DNA of 62,706 bases from an uncultured Gammaproteobacteria bacterium. GTDB taxonomy: Bacteria > Pseudomonadota > Gammaproteobacteria > Pseudomonadales > Litorivicinaceae. Shown here one piece after another: positions 34,478-42,135 of the stretch. The position numbers and the translations under genes are program-made. A model generated the notes under the pieces. The model was not told the origin of the DNA, searched no databases, and saw nothing but the letters and a program-made list of their open reading frames with translations. Every line of letters starts with the position of its first letter. Within the stretch, counting starts at the first letter, position 1. The stretch lies in contig CAJWIY010000006.1 in NCBI GenBank assembly GCA_913042205.1, positions 1-62,706 on the forward strand, given 5' to 3'.

Positions 34478-34918
34478 ATGCAAAAATTTCTAGCAAGCGA
34501 TGTCTTAGAACTGGCGTTTCTCGGTGCAGGATCTACTTTTGCGGATACCTCATGCGCAAAACAAAAGGTCGTATACCACGTCAACTACTGTGATGTTAAA
34601 AAAATCTATTGGCGCAATGCGTAACGCTCAAAATCATATAAATGCACTGGGTGAAGAAATCACGAGAATCGTTTCGTGCTTCACGGTAATGAAGTTGAGT
34701 TACTGGGAAAAGTTACTCAAGAGAGCCCGGATGCGGCAGACCATATTGATTTCTTGAGGAGCCAGCGCGTGAAATTCAATACCCGCGCAAATACCCTAAA
34801 GGGACGGAAGATTGCTTTTGACGATCTCCATTTTGCTGAAGAGGGTGATATTGTTCCCTCCGGTGTTGTGGAAATTGGCAAACTTCAGCAATACGGGTGT
34901 GTCTATCTCAGACCCTAA
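34478..34918 (+). pseudogene. DsrE-family protein, disrupted by two compensating frameshifts
   Basis: Pieces of one protein lie in two frames. Frame A from the ATG at 34478 gives a short N-terminus ending KQKVVYHVNYCDVKK, then runs into a stop. The next frame gives SIGAMRNAQNHINALGEEITRIV (to about 34668). Frame A resumes with VLHGNEVELLG...NTLKGRKIAFDD...EEGDIVPSGVVEIGKLQQYGCVYLRP, ending at 34918 (quoted in parts). Joined, the order matches exported or small DsrE/DsrF-like proteins of proteobacteria. The first shift coincides with a run of seven A near 34591-34597, the second lies near 34670. Either this is a pseudogene or the shifts are sequence errors or slippage. GGGACC and CAGGAAC precede the ATG. 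Confidence 0.75.
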
Positions 34919-34953: not shown

Positions 34954-36465
34954 TTACACAAAACTGTCAGCATATTCGTCCCGTAACAAATTTTTCTGGA
35001 CCTTACCCATGGTGTTTCTTGGCAGGGCTTCCAGCTGAACCCACCGGCGAGGGACCTTAAAGCCTGCTAGCTTCTTTCGACATCTAATCTCAAGGGCACC
35101 CATATCAAGTGTGCCCTCACCCACCAATACAGCAACAATACCTTCACCAAAATCGGAGTGTGGAACGCCTACCACAGCGCTCTCCACCACACCCGTCTGA
35201 TCGTTCAATACATCCTCAATTTCTTTTGGGTAAATATTTAAACCACCTGAGATAATGAGGTCTTTGCCTCGCCCGACGATCGACACGTAGCCGTCTTCAG
35301 ACAGCGTGGCCATGTCGCCCGTAATGAACCATTCGTCATTGAATTCGGCCGCAGTTTTTTCGGGCAATTTCCAGTAGCCTTTGAAAACATGATCCCCTTT
35401 CACCTCCAAAGAGCCAATTGCACCTCGCGATAACTCGGACCCATCCTCGTCTACAATTCTTACTTCAACCCCTGGTAGCGGTGGTCCAACAGAGCCGGGC
35501 CTGCGTTCGCCGCGCAAAGGATTAGAGCAACTCATCCCGGTCTCAGTCATCCCGTAGCGCTCAAGGATCCGCTGCCCTGTGCGGTCGAAGAACTCATCTG
35601 ATGTTTCAACCAACAAAGGCGCAGAACCGGAAATGAATAAGCGCATGTGACCGCAGATCTCTTGATCAAAACGTCGATCGGCTAGTAACCGAGTGTAGTA
35701 GGTAGGAACACCCATCATGACAGTTACGTCGGGCAGCACTGAAAGAACAGCGTCCAAATCAAATTTTGGCAACAATACGACAGAGCCGCCATGTATTAGA
35801 GCCAGATTCAGTGCCACAAAAAGACCATGCACATGGAATAATGGTAATGCATGCAACAGCACATCGTCGGCGCTGTAAGCCCAAGCTGCAGAAAGCATCG
35901 CTGCGTTTGAGATCAAGTTGTTATGAGTAATCATTGCACCTTTAGGCTTGCCAGTCGTTCCCGATGTATAGATTATCGAAGCGAGATCATCCGACCCACG
36001 AGGTACAATCGCCTCAACGGTCTTGCCTTCCGAGCTCGCTGCTAAAAATAAATCGAATAAGGAACCGCTTTTATCATCTAAAGTGAGAATTTCAAGCCCA
36101 GTCAAACTATGCTTTAAATTCTTCGCATGTCTCGCTCGGTCTCTCGAACATACATGTAACTTTGGCTCAGCATCAGTTAGGAAGTATTCGATCTCCGTAT
36201 CTGTGTAAGCAGAGTTCAGCGGCAAATACACCGCACCACAGCGCAGTACTGCGAGATAAAGGAGTACATTCATCCAGCCTTTGTCGATCTGCACAGAGAC
36301 GCGATCGCTCGGCTCGATACCCAAATCAAGCAGTACTGCGGCCAGAATTGCAGACTGGCTATCAAGATCAATTCCACTCAACTTTGCCCCGAAGGGAATA
36401 GTCAAAACAATCTGTTCAGCTTGTCGCCTCAAATTAGATTGAATGGAAGCGAACACGTTATGCAT
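34954..36465 (-). CDS. matB: malonyl-CoA synthetase (MatB-type AMP-forming ligase)
   Basis: ANL-superfamily acyl-CoA ligase of 503 residues. The AMP-binding motif IIYTSGTTGKPKGAMITHNN, GYWKLPEKTAAEF, the TGDMATLSEDGYVSIVGRGKD hinge region and the late catalytic lysine in PRNTMGKVQK are visible (cited in parts). The gene directly follows malonyl-CoA decarboxylase (8-nt overlap), which identifies malonate as the likely substrate; from sequence alone a related medium-chain or methylmalonate ligase is possible. It would make malonyl-CoA from imported malonate, ATP and CoA. It is the last gene of the TRAP/mat operon. Confidence 0.8.
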   Translation of the reverse strand: MHNVFASIQSNLRRQAEQIVLTIPFGAKLSGIDLDSQSAILAAVLLDLGIEPSDRVSVQIDKGWMNVLLYLAVLRCGAVYLPLNSAYTDTEIEYFLTDAEPKLHVCSRDRARHAKNLKHSLTGLEILTLDDKSGSLFDLFLAASSEGKTVEAIVPRGSDDLASIIYTSGTTGKPKGAMITHNNLISNAAMLSAAWAYSADDVLLHALPLFHVHGLFVALNLALIHGGSVVLLPKFDLDAVLSVLPDVTVMMGVPTYYTRLLADRRFDQEICGHMRLFISGSAPLLVETSDEFFDRTGQRILERYGMTETGMSCSNPLRGERRPGSVGPPLPGVEVRIVDEDGSELSRGAIGSLEVKGDHVFKGYWKLPEKTAAEFNDEWFITGDMATLSEDGYVSIVGRGKDLIISGGLNIYPKEIEDVLNDQTGVVESAVVGVPHSDFGEGIVAVLVGEGTLDMGALEIRCRKKLAGFKVPRRWVQLEALPRNTMGKVQKNLLRDEYADSFV

Positions 36466-37738
36466 CAGAAAGTTCCTTCAAAGGGGATCTAGTTATTTTT
36501 TTTAATAATTGTTGGATCTCTTTAGAGGTCGCAATTTGCCCGGATTCCATGAGCTTTTCATGATTACTGACAATGAGATCCAGCTCATAACGATAGTTGG
36601 CCATAAAGCCGAAACTTTGCTCGAGACCGCGAGCACTCAGATCCGCCTCCACATTGATCCGCTCGAGTGTTGCACCATTTCCCAAATGAAACTGGGCCAC
36701 CGGATCTCTCAATTTTGGGCCATCACCGTCGGTAAGATACTGCGCGACAATCGCCTTCAATTCCTGCTTATCGGCAGCCTCCTCGAATTGGCTCAAGAAC
36801 ATTTGACCATCAGACTCAAGCCAACGGCGAAGACCAGGGATAGGGGATAGCGTGACAAAATTCTTCAAGTTTGGATGTTGAGCCTGCAGAACGGATACAA
36901 CCTGCTTTATGAGAAGATTACCGAAGCTCACGCCGGCGAGGCCCGGCTGGCAGTTGTTAATCGAATAAAATACTGCGGTATCTGCGTCAACTGGTGAAAC
37001 GGGTAGCGTCTCAAGAAGGGGCGCAATCGCATCAGCCATTCCCTGCACAAGTGCGACTTCGACAAAAATCAGAGGCTCATCAGGAATAACAGGATGAAAA
37101 TACGCAAAACACAACCTATCTTCGGCGAGTCTTCGCCGTAAATCATCCCAGCCCTGTATCTCATGCACCGATTCGTACTGGATTAGTTTCTCCAACACCG
37201 TCGCAGACGTTTGCCAGTTAATCCGTTCCAACTCTAGAAAGCCTTTGTTAAACCAGGACGTAAAAAGATGAATGAAGTCTTGATCAATCGGCCCCAGCTC
37301 TGGATGGTCACGTGACAACTTACGTAGTTCTTCTCGCATCAGAATCAGTGTTTGTAGTCCGTTCGGCGCAGAATTTATGCGCCGAAATAGTTCCTGTCGT
37401 TTTGGCTCAGCAGCCTGATGCAAGGTCATTATTGCCGGTTCATTCAGAGAGGCCTGATAATCAATAATGGCGCGCTCAAGACGGTCCCGATCGGGACCAA
37501 ATTCATCAATCAATCGCCTAAAAAATTTCAAGTGATCAGCCCTGTCCAACGCCTGCCACGACGACACCACAGAGCCGGCAAGGGCAAGACCTGTCGCCTC
37601 ACCTCGCCTCGAAAGTACCGCATGGCAATGAGCTATCAAATCATCGAGCAGAATCCCCTCGGACTTTAAATCTAAAAGATCAAGCGCCTTTTCGGTCACT
37701 TGCTGAATCCACTTCTTGATTCCGCCACTCATTACCAT
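36458..37738 (-). CDS. matA: malonyl-CoA decarboxylase
   Basis: MLYCD/MatA family enzyme that converts malonyl-CoA to acetyl-CoA and CO2. Family stretches include the N-terminal helical domain with LIDEFGPDRDRL, FLELERINWQTSA, HPVIPDEPLIFVEVALVQGMADAI, VFYSINNCQPGLAGVSFGN and FVTLSPIPGLRRWL (parts quoted); the catalytic Ser/His region of the GNAT-like domain lies here. The best starts are ATG codons at 37738 or 37732; the ORF is open a few codons upstream into the maleate isomerase-like gene. Together with matB it completes conversion of malonate to acetyl-CoA. Confidence 0.9.
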   Translation of the reverse strand: MVMSGGIKKWIQQVTEKALDLLDLKSEGILLDDLIAHCHAVLSRRGEATGLALAGSVVSSWQALDRADHLKFFRRLIDEFGPDRDRLERAIIDYQASLNEPAIMTLHQAAEPKRQELFRRINSAPNGLQTLILMREELRKLSRDHPELGPIDQDFIHLFTSWFNKGFLELERINWQTSATVLEKLIQYESVHEIQGWDDLRRRLAEDRLCFAYFHPVIPDEPLIFVEVALVQGMADAIAPLLETLPVSPVDADTAVFYSINNCQPGLAGVSFGNLLIKQVVSVLQAQHPNLKNFVTLSPIPGLRRWLESDGQMFLSQFEEAADKQELKAIVAQYLTDGDGPKLRDPVAQFHLGNGATLERINVEADLSARGLEQSFGFMANYRYELDLIVSNHEKLMESGQIATSKEIQQLLKKITRSPLKELSDA

Positions 37739-37742
37739 TTTC

Positions 37743-38486
37743 TTATTCAAAGAGTGCGCCAAATCCAGACATATGCGTACCTAAGTCGAGCGCCTCCAGC
37801 ATTTGATGACCTGTCGCAACAGACGCGGAGAGGGTTGGTATGCCGGTTTTAGCTTGTAGCGCCGAAACTGCAGGTAGAGAGGGCATTTGTACGCAAGCTG
37901 ATGCGACCAGCGTATCGACGTTAGCCAAATTTAACCTGTCAACTAAGTCAACTGGCGCCATAGGATCTTGCCGTGCAACCTCAAGGTTGTCAGGAATTTC
38001 CAGACTAATCGCATCCAAAACCTCAAAACCTTCAGACTCAATATACTGACAGACCAAATCAGTGAGGGGTTTTCGATAAGGGGCTATCACAGCAATCCGC
38101 TTCGCATTCAGTGTCGATAGACCCTCAACCAATCCACCGGCAGAGCTAACCACCGGGCAGGGATGACCGTTATCGACTGTTACCTGGCGTAACCGCGCCT
38201 GACTATCTCTGTGATACCCGAGGCCCACTGACATTATAGCGACCAGACAGGCGTAGCCCATGACGTCCATAGACGCATCCGATAATTCAAGTACGCATCT
38301 GTCACTATCACGGTCCATTGAGGCCAATTCTTCCCTAGTCACCTGCTTCATCCGCATCCGACTAGAGTGGAAGGTGAACCGATCATCATAATGCTTTTCC
38401 CTGGCTCGAAATATCTCAGGAATTTCTGTCTCCATCGTCACGTTCGAACTGGGGACGATCTGACCTACTCTGTAGGGTCTGGTCAT
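37743..38486 (-). CDS. maleate cis-trans isomerase-like protein (Asp/Glu racemase superfamily)
   Basis: A 247-residue member of the Asp/Glu racemase fold. Key residues line up with characterised maleate isomerase: Asn15 in VPSSNVTMETE, Cys80 in MGYAC, Tyr137 in IAPYRKP and Cys198 in ASACVQMPSLP. The expected reaction is maleate to fumarate; arylmalonate decarboxylase is a relative with only one of the two cysteines, so two cysteines favour isomerase or racemase chemistry. It overlaps the TRAP large subunit by 4 nt (ATGA) and sits just upstream of malonyl-CoA decarboxylase, an unusual position in a malonate operon. True substrate unknown. Confidence 0.75.
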   Translation of the reverse strand: MTRPYRVGQIVPSSNVTMETEIPEIFRAREKHYDDRFTFHSSRMRMKQVTREELASMDRDSDRCVLELSDASMDVMGYACLVAIMSVGLGYHRDSQARLRQVTVDNGHPCPVVSSAGGLVEGLSTLNAKRIAVIAPYRKPLTDLVCQYIESEGFEVLDAISLEIPDNLEVARQDPMAPVDLVDRLNLANVDTLVASACVQMPSLPAVSALQAKTGIPTLSASVATGHQMLEALDLGTHMSGFGALFE

Positions 38487-39802
38487 GTAACCGCGGCCCC
38501 CATGAGCGCGTCAGGTAACCAGGTGGCAATTCCGGGGAATAAACAAAGGATCAATATGGCTATTATCATGCACGCTACGTAGGGCAATGAGCCTGTGAGA
38601 ATCGTCTTTAGAGGTATCTCAGGGGCGATCCCGTTGATAACGTAGAGATTTAAACCAACTGGCGGAGAGATTAATCCGATTTCCATGTTGATGGTGAGCA
38701 CCACGGCAAACCAATAAGGGTCGAAACCAGCCCCCAAAATAATCGGCATTAGTATGGGCGCCGCCATCAAAATGACGGCAACTGGCGGTAGAAAAAACCC
38801 GGCTACTAACAAAAAGATATTGATGTAGAACATCAAAACCCAACGATTTACCTCAAGCGTTCCGATCCAAGCTGCAATTGATTGAGTGATAAAAAGACTA
38901 GACAGCATGTAAGAAAATACGCCGGCAGCCGCAATGATAAATAAAATCATTACCGATTCTTTAGTGGAGTCTCTGAGCATGAACCATATAGTCCCTAAAT
39001 CGGTCATGCGGTAGATCACGATTGCCAAACCTAGACACAAGAGTGCTCCGACAGCGGCTGTCTCTGACGGGGTAGCTACGCCGCCATAGAGCGCGTAAAG
39101 AACGCCTAATATAACGAGAAGAAAAGGTACGACCCGAGGTAAGACCTCAAACTTTTCTTTCCAGCTGAAGGTCCTGCCGGCTAGGGCATCTATTCCACCC
39201 TGTCTCCACGTGGCAAAGATCGACCAAGCCATGAAAAGGCTAACAAGCAGAAGTCCTGGCAAAACACCCGCGATAAAAAGACGTCCGATTGAGGTCTCTG
39301 TGGCAATTCCATAAACGATCATTGTTATCGATGGCGGTATTAAGATCCCAAGCGTCCCTCCTGCCGCAATAGAACCGGCTGCGACTCCATCTGGAAAGTT
39401 TCGTTTACGCATTTCAGGGATGCCCATCTTCCCAATAGCCGCACAAGTCGCTGGGGAAGATCCAGACATGGCTGCAAATAAAGCACAAGCGCCAAGGTTT
39501 GAAACTACCAAACCCCCTGGGACTCTGGTTAACCATCGATCTAGCGCCTCATACAAATCGGCTCCCGCTCGGGTAGACGCGATCGCGGCACCCATCAAGA
39601 TAAACATCGGGATCGATAGAAGCGCAAAATTATCAAGCTTCCCAAACAATACCTCGGGAATTAACTCCAATGACCGGAAACCATCGAAGGTTAGCAAAAA
39701 GATCGCCGAGACCACCAAAAGCCCGTTCGCTACGGAGATTCCTGAAAACAAAATCAATATCGTGACGGTCGCAACTAACAGTCCTAGCACCAAAGGATCC
39801 AT
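38483..39802 (-). CDS. TRAP transporter large permease subunit (DctM family)
   Basis: Twelve-helix cation-coupled permease of 439 residues that carries a dicarboxylate delivered by the periplasmic binding protein. Family features include SIPMFILMG, SGSSPATCAAIGKMGIPEM, AAGGTLGILIPPSI and GLISPPVGLNLYV. Given the downstream malonate genes, it is comparable to the MatM component described for Sinorhizobium malonate TRAP transport. It overlaps the DctQ-type subunit by one base and the isomerase-like gene by 4 nt. Confidence 0.93.
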   Translation of the reverse strand: MDPLVLGLLVATVTILILFSGISVANGLLVVSAIFLLTFDGFRSLELIPEVLFGKLDNFALLSIPMFILMGAAIASTRAGADLYEALDRWLTRVPGGLVVSNLGACALFAAMSGSSPATCAAIGKMGIPEMRKRNFPDGVAAGSIAAGGTLGILIPPSITMIVYGIATETSIGRLFIAGVLPGLLLVSLFMAWSIFATWRQGGIDALAGRTFSWKEKFEVLPRVVPFLLVILGVLYALYGGVATPSETAAVGALLCLGLAIVIYRMTDLGTIWFMLRDSTKESVMILFIIAAAGVFSYMLSSLFITQSIAAWIGTLEVNRWVLMFYINIFLLVAGFFLPPVAVILMAAPILMPIILGAGFDPYWFAVVLTINMEIGLISPPVGLNLYVINGIAPEIPLKTILTGSLPYVACMIIAILILCLFPGIATWLPDALMGAAVT

Positions 39803-40317
39803 CAGTGCGTACTCCCTTCTATGACTATTTTCTCCGCGGGGGTGAGCAAGACTTCAAATAGATCTGAAGTCAGCTGCAAGGCAAATAAACCAAACCCGAT
39901 CGGCATGGTCAGGTATGGAATCCATAGCGGTGGACCCCATACCGTCTCAGAGGTCCATCCCTTAGTAAATGAAACATAGACTAAATCTGCTGAGTAATAC
40001 GTCATTATGGCTAGAACCAATATGGCCACCAAGAAACTAATAACCATAAGAAGCTTTCGTGCAGGTGGGGATAGTAACATCGGGACTAACTCAACATTTA
40101 CATGACCTTTTAACTTTTGAACGTAAGGAAGTCCCAACAGTGTCGCGGCTAATATCAGATACACGACGGCCTCCGTGTGCCAATATGTAGACCCATTCAA
40201 GAAATATCTAATGAATATCATCTGACACGTGATAATGACGGCTACTAGCACCATCATTGCGGCGAGCACACCTACCGCGGTAGAAATTCTATTCACGGAG
40301 GAAATGAAACCCCTCAT
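39802..40317 (-). CDS. TRAP transporter small permease subunit (DctQ family)
   Basis: Four-helix membrane protein of 171 residues that pairs with the large subunit. The ATG at 40317 has AAAAGG eight bases upstream; a TTG at 40335 is less likely. Predicted helices include VGVLAAMMVLVAVIITCQMIF and LLMVISFLVAILVLAIMTYY (quoted in part), with the typical YWHTEAVVYL segment and an amphipathic PPLWIPYLTMPIGFGLFALQ turn. It is separated from the binding-protein gene by a strong hairpin (40337-40362). Confidence 0.9.
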   Translation of the reverse strand: MRGFISSVNRISTAVGVLAAMMVLVAVIITCQMIFIRYFLNGSTYWHTEAVVYLILAATLLGLPYVQKLKGHVNVELVPMLLSPPARKLLMVISFLVAILVLAIMTYYSADLVYVSFTKGWTSETVWGPPLWIPYLTMPIGFGLFALQLTSDLFEVLLTPAEKIVIEGSTH

Positions 40318-40336
40318 ATTTCGAACCTTTTGCAAG

Positions 40337-40362
40337 AGCTCGGTCCTACTGCGGACCGAGCT
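40337..40362 (-). other. strong hairpin between TRAP binding-protein and permease genes
   Basis: A perfect 10-bp stem (AGCTCGGTCC with GGACCGAGCT) surrounds a 6-nt loop in the 52-nt gap after the binding-protein stop. No T-run follows on the minus strand, so it is not a standard terminator. The position suggests a 3' stabilising structure that raises the level of binding-protein mRNA relative to the permease, as known for binding-protein transport operons with intercistronic hairpins; this is inference. Confidence 0.6.
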
Positions 40363-40369
40363 TGTCGGA

Positions 40370-41353
40370 CTAGTCGACTGCTAACGCGAGGTCAAGAAAA
40401 CGCTGGCCTTCGGGATAGTCAGCTACAAACTGTTTGTACGAAGTCTTTTTAGCCAAATCTTGCCATGCTTTGAATTCTGAGGACGACATCTCTTTGATTT
40501 GCACGCCTGCTTCTTTATAAACTTTGACAGAGTTAGCGTCTTGCTTCTTAGCTTCAGCTAGGTAGTACTCTTCGGCCTTCTTTGAGCCTGCGCGGAGTGC
40601 TTTCTTTTGAGCCGCCGTGAGACCGTCAAAGGTTGATTTATTCATCAACAGTGGCTGATACATAAACCAAAGTGCCTGTGCACCTGCTGGGGTGTAACAT
40701 TTCACCTGCTCGTAGATCCGGTACGAGACGAATGATGATGATGATGTATTTGCCCCATCGAGCACACCTGTCTGCATAGCGTTATATATCTCGGAGGAAG
40801 CCATCGACGCGATCGATGCGCCTGCTCCTGCGAGCAACTGATTAAAAGACTTACCAGCCGCCCTCATCTGAAGACCTTTGACATCGTCAGGATGAGACAC
40901 ACATTTTTCTTTGCCCACGAAGCCACCGGCCAAATACCCATGAACCAGAACCATGACATCGTCTTCTGCCATCTTTTCCTGAATTGCATCCATGAACGGT
41001 GAATAATTCAGACGCGCAGCGTGGTCGTGGTTCTTCACGAGGCCAGGCATCAGAGTCAAGTTATACGAGGGCTGCTGACCACCGGCGTAAGACAATGGGA
41101 GCACGACCATGTCCAACTGGCCCCGCGATAGTGGTTTGTACTGCTCTTTAGGTTTGAAAAGAGACTTGGACGGAAATATCTTTATTTCCAGACCCACGTT
41201 AGCGTCTTTTACATGATTGGCGACTATCTCAGCCACTTTATGGCGGACATCTTTCGTTGACCACTGATGCGAGAGACGAAGCTCTGCAGCGTTTGCGAGC
41301 GAACTAACAAAAATCGTTGAGACCGCCGCAGTTAAAAGGGTTTTTATTTTCAT
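40370..41353 (-). CDS. TRAP transporter substrate-binding protein (DctP family)
   Basis: Periplasmic solute receptor of 327 residues. A Sec signal peptide (LLTAAVSTIFVSSLANA) precedes AELRLSHQWS. The DctP pattern is clear, including RGQLDMVVLPLSYAGG, the conserved ligand arginine in LQMRAAGKSFNQLL, and the YNAMQTGVLDGANTSSSSF motif. GCAGGAG lies upstream of the ATG. Expected ligand is malonate or another small dicarboxylate, judged from the operon. It is the first gene of the operon and divergent from the GntR regulator. Confidence 0.92.
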   Translation of the reverse strand: MKIKTLLTAAVSTIFVSSLANAAELRLSHQWSTKDVRHKVAEIVANHVKDANVGLEIKIFPSKSLFKPKEQYKPLSRGQLDMVVLPLSYAGGQQPSYNLTLMPGLVKNHDHAARLNYSPFMDAIQEKMAEDDVMVLVHGYLAGGFVGKEKCVSHPDDVKGLQMRAAGKSFNQLLAGAGASIASMASSEIYNAMQTGVLDGANTSSSSFVSYRIYEQVKCYTPAGAQALWFMYQPLLMNKSTFDGLTAAQKKALRAGSKKAEEYYLAEAKKQDANSVKVYKEAGVQIKEMSSSEFKAWQDLAKKTSYKQFVADYPEGQRFLDLALAVD

Positions 41354-41414
41354 TACTAGCTCCTGCCGGATGTGGCAAGTTGTTTGAACTTGCGCATTTA
41401 TGACTTATAACGGC

Positions 41415-41468
41415 TTGCATATTTCTGTATGCTAGATTGAAATTATCGTATACAAAAATAATATGCAA
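41415..41468 (+). promoter_or_regulatory. gntR promoter and candidate operator dyads
   Basis: In the 128-bp gap between the divergent binding-protein and gntR genes, a plus-strand promoter is visible: TTGAAA (41437-41442), a 16-bp spacer and TAATAT (41459-41464). Three symmetric elements surround it. A GCATA/TATGC dyad with a 6-nt loop lies at 41417-41432. A GTATAC palindrome lies in the spacer (41448-41453). A distant 9-bp inverted pair, TTGCATATT (41415-41423) with AATATGCAA (41460-41468), flanks the whole promoter. GntR/FCD regulators often bind such TATAC-type dyads, so autoregulation and control of the TRAP operon are inferred. Confidence 0.5.
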
Positions 41469-41481
41469 CACGTTTTCCAGT

Positions 41482-42135
41482 ATGAGTAATCGAGCCGCTA
41501 CCAAAGTCTTTCAAGGGGTCGAAGAACAAATCGCGACTGGCCAATTAAAAGATGGAACAAAATTAGATGAGGCTACGCTAGCTGAAAAATTTCAGGTATC
41601 CCGGACCCCTGTGCGAGAAGCGTTACTCCAACTCGTTGGGTCAGGCCTCGCTACCCAAATTCCAAAGCGTGGATGCTTTGTAAACGCACCCTCGTTTAGA
41701 GAAGTAATCGAAATGTTTGAAGTTATGAGCGAGCTTGAGGGGATGTGCGCGCGGCTTGCCGCTAGACGCATCAGTGACGAACAGCTCAATGATTTAAAGA
41801 CAGCGAATGCTGGTTGTGAGGATGCCATCCGATATACCGATAGCGATTTATACTACGACAGAAATGTGGATTTTCATGAGTGCATTTATGTTGCATGCGG
41901 GAATCGTTTTCTGGCAAACGAGACCCGCGTGTTACGTCGTCGCCTGCAATCATTTCGACGCCTTCAGCTGCGAGCTCGTGGTCGAATGCCTCAATCCCTG
42001 ACTGAGCATGTCGAAATCATCGAGGCCATCGAAACCGGAAATGCTGACAAAGCGAATGAGATTTCACGCCAGCACGTTATGATCCAAGGTGAAAGATTTA
42101 ACGACCTTCTTTCGCACATGGAATATGACCAGTAA
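41482..42135 (+). CDS. GntR family transcriptional regulator (FCD domain)
   Basis: A 217-residue regulator from the ATG at 41482. The N-terminal winged helix-turn-helix has LDEATLAEKFQVSRTPVREALLQLVGSG (quoted in part). The C-terminal FCD ligand domain contains the likely metal-binding Asp and His residues in DRNVDFHECIY and SLTEHVEIIEAIE with ISRQHV. FCD regulators usually sense small organic acids. Divergent placement next to the malonate TRAP operon mirrors the GntR-type regulator of Sinorhizobium malonate genes. A longer ORF from 41437 would start within the promoter and is rejected. Confidence 0.9.
   Translation: MSNRAATKVFQGVEEQIATGQLKDGTKLDEATLAEKFQVSRTPVREALLQLVGSGLATQIPKRGCFVNAPSFREVIEMFEVMSELEGMCARLAARRISDEQLNDLKTANAGCEDAIRYTDSDLYYDRNVDFHECIYVACGNRFLANETRVLRRRLQSFRRLQLRARGRMPQSLTEHVEIIEAIETGNADKANEISRQHVMIQGERFNDLLSHMEYDQ

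Follow-up and report, generated by a model that had tools for sequence, protein, structure and literature searches.

A malonate TRAP operon with a maleate isomerase-like gene in the Litoricola family, a candidate route for two dicarboxylates

The window analyzed here is a 62,706-nt stretch (contig CAJWIY010000006.1, positions 1 to 62,706) from an uncultured marine gammaproteobacterium of Litoricola/OM252 type (Litorivicinaceae, below called the Litoricola family). The source genome (G000) is a 2.0-Mb draft and 98% complete. Positions 34,954 to 42,135 hold an operon of malonate type, with genes for a tripartite ATP-independent periplasmic (TRAP) transporter, a malonyl-coenzyme A (CoA) decarboxylase (MatA) and a malonyl-CoA synthetase (MatB). 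Between the transporter genes and matA lies a gene for a putative maleate isomerase (MI), which is the subject of this analysis. The genes and features are as follows.

41482 to 42135, plus strand: GntR/FCD regulator (Pfam FCD 105 bits, GntR 59 bits), likely start ATG 41482
41446 to 41455, divergent promoter region: operator-like element TCGTATACAA / TTGTATACGA, recognized by conservation upstream of dctP
40370 to 41353, minus strand: dctP/matP, TRAP solute-binding protein (Pfam DctP 146 bits; nearest PDB entry 4mco, E 1.4e-61)
40337 to 40362, minus strand: predicted stem-loop in the dctP-dctQ gap (10-bp stem, 6-nt loop; folding z -3.51)
39802 to 40335, minus strand: dctQ/matQ, TRAP small permease (Pfam DctQ 101 bits)
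38483 to 39802, minus strand: dctM/matM, TRAP large permease (Pfam DctM 303 bits, TIGR00786 348 bits)
37743 to 38486, minus strand: putative MI, 247 aa (Pfam Amdase 54.8 bits; 4fq7 E 5e-87)
36458 to 37738, minus strand: matA, malonyl-CoA decarboxylase (Pfam MCD 291 bits, MCD_N 94 bits), likely start ATG 37738
34954 to 36465, minus strand: matB, malonyl-CoA synthetase (NF005702 694 bits, cut-off 558; ERYGMTE motif)

All seven genes were found at these places with uninterrupted frames. Frames and profiles together confirm the initial annotation, which had described a regulator divergent from TRAP P-Q-M genes, a racemase-fold enzyme, matA and matB. On the minus strand the order from 41353 down to 34954 is dctP, dctQ, dctM, MI, matA and matB, i.e., the malonate matPQMAB layout with its divergent FCD regulator, plus MI between dctM and matA. 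By the coordinates of the open reading frame (ORF) list, overlaps join dctQ and dctM (1 nt), dctM and MI (4 nt), and matA and matB (8 nt). The suggestion that all genes are translationally coupled is slightly overstated, as MI and matA are probably 4 nt apart and dctP and dctQ have the stem-loop between them. The start of matA is probably ATG 37738, 4 nt past the MI stop, rather than the TTG 37762 of the ORF list. For the regulator, ATG 41482 is more likely than the listed TTG 41437, because the operator-like element occupies 41446-41455.

The TRAP and mat genes make up, as judged from sequence, an ordinary malonate operon to which the isomerase is the addition, since among 47 loci around related TRAP transporters (40 genomic, seven plasmid) matA is found in 34 and matB in 36, while MI is found in none. 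The study cited for the malonate TRAP operon matPQMAB of Sinorhizobium meliloti is reportedly Chen et al. 2010. Malonate induces that operon, and a null mutant of matB fails to grow when malonate is the only carbon source (PMC7232532, in extract); the operon is also described in PMC5237526 (in extract). MatB of the window lies above the NCBIfam malonyl-CoA synthase cut-off and contains ERYGMTE, a motif conserved in malonyl-CoA synthetase-type enzymes (PMC7232532, in extract). The PDB entries nearest to DctP by sequence are 4mco and 4mev. The same pair leads for the structure model of DctP with Z scores of 39.5 and 39.3, against 34.4 for the entry that follows, and the fit to 4mev (Z 39.5) has a root-mean-square deviation (rmsd) of 2.7 over 305 residues at 35% identity. 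Malonate is present in 4MCO (PMC4086125, in extract). By analogy with these relatives, malonate transport and the MatA and MatB reactions are predicted for the window.

The genome samples searched were subsets, drawn from the class (369 genomes), the phylum (398) and the order (194). At E 1e-45, relatives of DctP occur in 17 of the class genomes and 43 of the phylum genomes, own genome counted; for 20 weaker matches (31-36% identity), the loci of four were examined. Five malonate TRAP relatives (L236, L238, L251, L254 and L255) have no matA match in the sequence examined, although L236 does have matB downstream of the transporter. A gene resembling, by eye, a TauE/SafE permease is present in two other mat operons: in L229 (9713-10525) it separates dctM from matB, in L231 (3497-4285) matA from matB. 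Small genes in the gaps of mat operons L222, L229 and L231 were considered as isomerases and rejected, as they are by eye one HAD-like and two TauE/SafE-like.

The active site of maleate isomerase (EC 5.2.1.1) contains an Asn, a Tyr and two Cys with catalytic roles. The complete set noted in the initial annotation (Asn15, Cys80, Tyr137 and Cys198) is unvarying in 76/76 aligned rows, including 4fq7 and 2xec, as are 52 further positions. These rows derive from 140 matches, reduced to 74 different sequences plus two from the PDB, with 17 from the Litoricola family and 57 from other genomes. In the PDB, MI matches 4fq7, the maleate isomerase Iso of Pseudomonas putida S16 (59% identity). The maleate isomerase of Nocardia farcinica is matched at E 1.3e-57, and arylmalonate decarboxylase (AMDase) only at E 2e-6. 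A structure model of MI (mean predicted local distance difference test score 92.3) superimposes on maleate-bound 4fq5 with Z 41.0 and an rmsd of 0.9 Å over 244 residues at 59% identity, and on 2xec with 1.2 Å at 44% identity, whereas the best AMDase entry reaches Z 29.6 at about 20% identity. An assignment as AMDase was rejected, as the NF052327 score is 65 bits against a cut-off of 225. The earlier description as a maleate isomerase-like enzyme thus agrees with the identity and fit to the P. putida enzyme, and MI probably converts maleate to fumarate as its relatives do.

Sequence comparison indicates that MI is under purifying selection like matA and matB. In two comparisons, the ratio of nonsynonymous to synonymous substitution rates (dN/dS) was 0.11 and 0.10 for MI, 0.09 and 0.11 for matA, and 0.11 and 0.10 for matB; dS of MI was saturated in six others. 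Constraint in the same two comparisons was tighter for dctP (0.02) and dctM (0.01-0.02). The nearest MI sequences come from gammaproteobacterial metagenome-assembled genomes (96, 87 and 86%), followed by Litoricola sp. (85%) and strain HIMB30 (81%). HIMB30, Litoricola and OM252 are handled together in PMC8269220.

Within the family, MI is present in 18 of 25 genomes and matA in 19, i.e., the same 18 and G010, whose contig stops inside matA before the MI position. Six genomes have neither gene: G011 (99% complete), G023 (97%), and G009, G007, G022 and G012 (89 to 68%). The one-sided Fisher value for this co-occurrence is 4e-5, in a set of related and hence not independent genomes. MI adjoins matA in all 18 genomes that have it and is flanked by dctM on the other side in 17, the last locus being cut, and this placement is kept in two genera. 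The initial annotation had proposed looking for MI next to matA and matB elsewhere; the pairing recurs in all 18 family genomes with MI, but not outside the family, where in the sequence examined 0/60 MI loci have matA and 0/47 TRAP loci have MI. On this sequence evidence, we are dealing with a stably maintained variant of the malonate operon that was met in a single family.

Of 21 loci examined, with some genomes represented twice, 17 have rpoD next to the operon; in the remaining four the sequence stops within matB or matA or shortly past them. G011 and G009, which are without the operon, have other genes after rpoD, and the region from rpoD to tRNA-Met is a possible variable site. At both loci (L287 in G011, L288 in G009) these genes include one that by eye is ornithine decarboxylase-like. 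In the window, the gap between rpoD and matB contains a plus-strand frame (34479-34918) that by eye looks like a decayed DsrE-like gene disrupted by frame changes; its 80-aa second part has no Pfam match.

Family members counted, MI occurs in 15/194 order genomes and 18/398 phylum genomes. The MI half of a fused MI and MatA query, with scoring limited to three candidates in each genome, was matched in 4/369 class genomes, i.e., the own genome, G095, G502 and, as a fragment, G287. In G095, matA lies about 290 kb from MI. The MI-like frame of G287 (71% identity over 69 residues), by a TauE-like gene, was discarded as too short to use. Near the 60 MI loci from other lineages (33 plus 27, with L030 and L136 probably one record counted twice) no matA was found in the sequence examined per locus, some of which is cut short. 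Judged from product names, five annotated plasmid MI loci resemble nicotine/nicotinate-type or gentisate-type clusters, in which maleate arises within the cell. In Polaromonas sp. P2-4 (L057, 8.9-10.2 kb) the MI match extends over two frames, and the gene may be broken.

G502, a genome of another family, carries the regulator, dctPQM and MI in the Litoricola order, with a DctP 74% identical to that of the window. Neither matA nor matB is found in the 19 kb around its TRAP-MI genes; a matA match lies on another contig (three of 15 candidates scored), with no matB match in 18 kb there. Three other genomes of its family have no MI. MI thus accompanies this transporter type in two lineages, one of them without matAB alongside, and on gene content G502 favours a tie of MI to the transporter rather than to matAB. 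Since G502 has TRAP and MI without matAB alongside, import of maleate is favoured over processing of a substituted malonate before MatB.

The region between the divergent genes contains TCGTATACAA, which in the direction of dctP reads TTGTATACGA. Of 15 Litoricola-type sequences, counting the window, 13 carry TTGTATACGA within the 260 nt upstream of dctP, while the remaining two each deviate from TTGTATACAA at two positions. A perfect copy of TTGTATACAA lies in the corresponding 260 nt of 10/10 relatives without MI that were examined, including S. meliloti pSymA. At most one mismatch occurred in 57/5200 simple shuffles, in which base composition alone was preserved. This conserved element upstream of dctP in operons with and without MI suggests, at sequence level, that the two are under common control, G502 excepted. 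The stem-loop between dctP and dctQ has a perfect 10-bp stem and a 6-nt loop, within a 66-nt stretch that folds at -25.6 kcal/mol, and may set a higher output of DctP than of the permease.

On balance we lean, if only slightly, towards a reading in which one TRAP transporter co-imports malonate and maleate, feeding acetyl-CoA and fumarate, respectively. Malonate would be imported by the TRAP transporter, converted to malonyl-CoA by MatB and decarboxylated to acetyl-CoA by MatA. Maleate would enter via the same binding protein and be turned into fumarate by MI through addition of Cys80, bond rotation and elimination with Cys198; a succinyl-cysteine intermediate of this route is named in the title of PDB entry 2xed. 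The fumarate would then enter the tricarboxylic acid cycle. Carriage of maleate by the TRAP transporter is a step that we infer only. Maleate, a cis diacid, resembles malonate in that the carboxylates are close together in both. DctP of Rhodobacter capsulatus, a C4 binding protein, gave no change in Förster resonance energy transfer with maleate or malonate (PMC3454389, in extract). The shared spacing of the carboxylates and the silence of this protein to both acids make co-import chemically reasonable. It is also conceivable, although we consider it distinctly tentative, that malonate-type binding proteins accept closely spaced (cisoid) dicarboxylates, both malonate and maleate, as a class and exclude extended forms, e.g., succinate and fumarate. 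The operon of the surface-ocean Litoricola would then be a scavenger of photochemical diacids, with MI handling the C4 member.

Several observations weigh against co-import. MI-less operons are the rule around the related transporters, and no DctP residue marks a gain of maleate binding, as only F319 is Litoricola-specific when compared with 16 close MI-less relatives. By the same residue criteria, no MI-linked residue is common to Litoricola and G502 alone. DctP of the MI-less G561 (74% identical) is as close as that of G502. G502 also has no good copy of the operator-like element, its best having three mismatches. Furthermore, its TRAP-MI pair may not be independent of the Litoricola pair, because a common origin is not rejected by the trees. 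G502 groups with Polaromonas-type sequences in the MI tree (support 83/96), but an independent double origin of the pairing was set aside: a joint MI clade with Litoricola was not rejected in the approximately unbiased (AU) test (p-AU 0.237), and for DctP the joined clade was equally good (p-AU 0.545). For these trees, 66 different DctP sequences gave 55 aligned and 48 used for the model. For MI 45/73 were used for the model; matches aligned over fewer than 216 residues, including L018, a partial match, and the broken copy of L057, were left out of the tree. MI itself departs in Litoricola from otherwise steady positions, among them 26, 138, 218, 230 and 246. Position 138, beside Tyr137, is Met in 58/59 outside rows, and Arg (14), Gln (2) or Ala (1) in the Litoricola family. 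Finally, the mean for maleic acid in marine aerosol is 0.43 ng per cubic metre against 11.5 for malonic acid, about 1/27 (PMC5561035, in extract).

This scarcity of maleic acid would also fit a protective role of MI, in which malonate is the sole nutrient. Maleate leaking in through the malonate transporter would otherwise be captured by MatB in the form of maleyl-CoA or attack thiols; MI would remove it as harmless fumarate, protecting CoA and MatB. Such a role agrees with the broad substrate range of MatB from Rhizobium leguminosarum and Streptomyces coelicolor (PMC7232532, in extract) and with the position of MI before matA in every MI-bearing family genome, and for the Litoricola data it is nearly as good an explanation as co-import. 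We regard it as the main rival, but as unlikely, since it accounts less well for G502, where matAB is absent from beside the TRAP and MI genes and the matA match lies on another contig, with no matB match in 18 kb there. The same arrangement in G502 speaks against MI acting on another small diacid, e.g., methylmaleate (citraconate), or on a substituted malonate that it would prepare for MatB and MatA. In favour of another substrate are the Litoricola-specific changes at the five positions named above, the superfamily shared by MI and AMDase, and the occurrence of methylmaleic acid in marine aerosol (PMC5561035, in extract). However, none of the 76 rows varies at the catalytic residues or at 52 other positions, and the AMDase score is far below its cut-off, which renders this explanation improbable.

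MI might instead serve maleate arising inside the cell from nicotinate or gentisate breakdown, with its place in the operon giving co-expression only. The five plasmid MI loci of nicotine/nicotinate or gentisate type are in line with this, as are matches to the isochorismatase family, to which maleamate hydrolase belongs, in several family genomes, with G006 giving the best one (38%). However, among the 25 family genomes a NicX-like query had no match at E 1e-6 and a gentisate-dioxygenase-like query only partial cupin matches (27-28%), so that there is no obvious internal source of maleate in the family. The isochorismatase-family matches to a maleamate-hydrolase-like query are partial (32-43%), and neither such genes nor any other gene for a maleate-producing enzyme is among the operon genes. 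The three query labels reflect our reading of the clusters from which the queries came. We thus consider an internal origin of maleate very improbable. Even less credit is given to chance insertion or hitch-hiking of a gene unrelated to the operon, for which it could be cited that the samples searched yielded a single locus outside the family with MI next to a TRAP of this type. MI is kept in two genera, shares 4 nt with dctM in the window, is under purifying selection like matA, and is found and missing together with matA in family genomes. Co-import of malonate and maleate remains the reading that we favour.

Malonic, maleic and fumaric acids are all present in marine aerosol (PMC5561035, in extract), and the title of PMC8269220 presents the marine clade as cosmopolitan. 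The main text of PMC8269220 does not contain the words malonate, maleate, TRAP, dicarboxylate or malonyl. Among the literature matches listed, which mostly leave subscription journals uncovered, we recognized no description of a malonate operon with a maleate isomerase, which does not show absence from print. In extract, PMC8307300, the single match containing both "maleate isomerase" and "malonyl-CoA decarboxylase", gives them as separate reactions, and PMC12632250 and PMC5658364 have no bearing on the operon. No named maleate transporter was met among the listed matches, although this does not show that such a transporter has never been described. If co-import is true, maleate would have a specific route of entry, diacids of atmospheric or photochemical origin would be tied in a testable way to a cosmopolitan marine clade, and the wide group of malonate-type TRAP transporters would gain a substrate hint. 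If binding of cisoid diacids is a property of the class, maleate uptake would be expected in the other bacteria that have this transporter. The interest is moderate, because the operon yields a sharp and cheap test of transporter specificity.

Compared with known systems, AMDase loci share with the window the superfamily of the enzyme, and some AMDase genes lie near TRAP genes (PMC4996985, in extract); MI differs in its identity of about 20% to AMDase and its score far under the AMDase cut-off. The resemblance of the TRAP and MatAB part to the Sinorhizobium malonate system, claimed in the initial annotation, is borne out by S. meliloti pSymA. There, as in the window, an FCD-type regulator is divergent from dctP-dctQ-dctM, followed by matA and matB matches, with TTGTATACAA upstream and a DctP 48% identical; unlike the window, this locus, whose record is without annotation, has no isomerase match. 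Malonate-type TRAP/mat operons from plasmids of marine Rhodobacteraceae (Ruegeria sp. SCSIO 43209, SC52, Tritonibacter and Tateyamaria) have the same order and a DctP 71-76% identical, but no MI, and matA directly follows dctM. Iso of P. putida S16 (4fq5, 4fq7) is part of nicotine degradation. It has 59% identity with MI and the same fold and catalytic residues, whereas position 138 differs and MI is set in a malonate operon.

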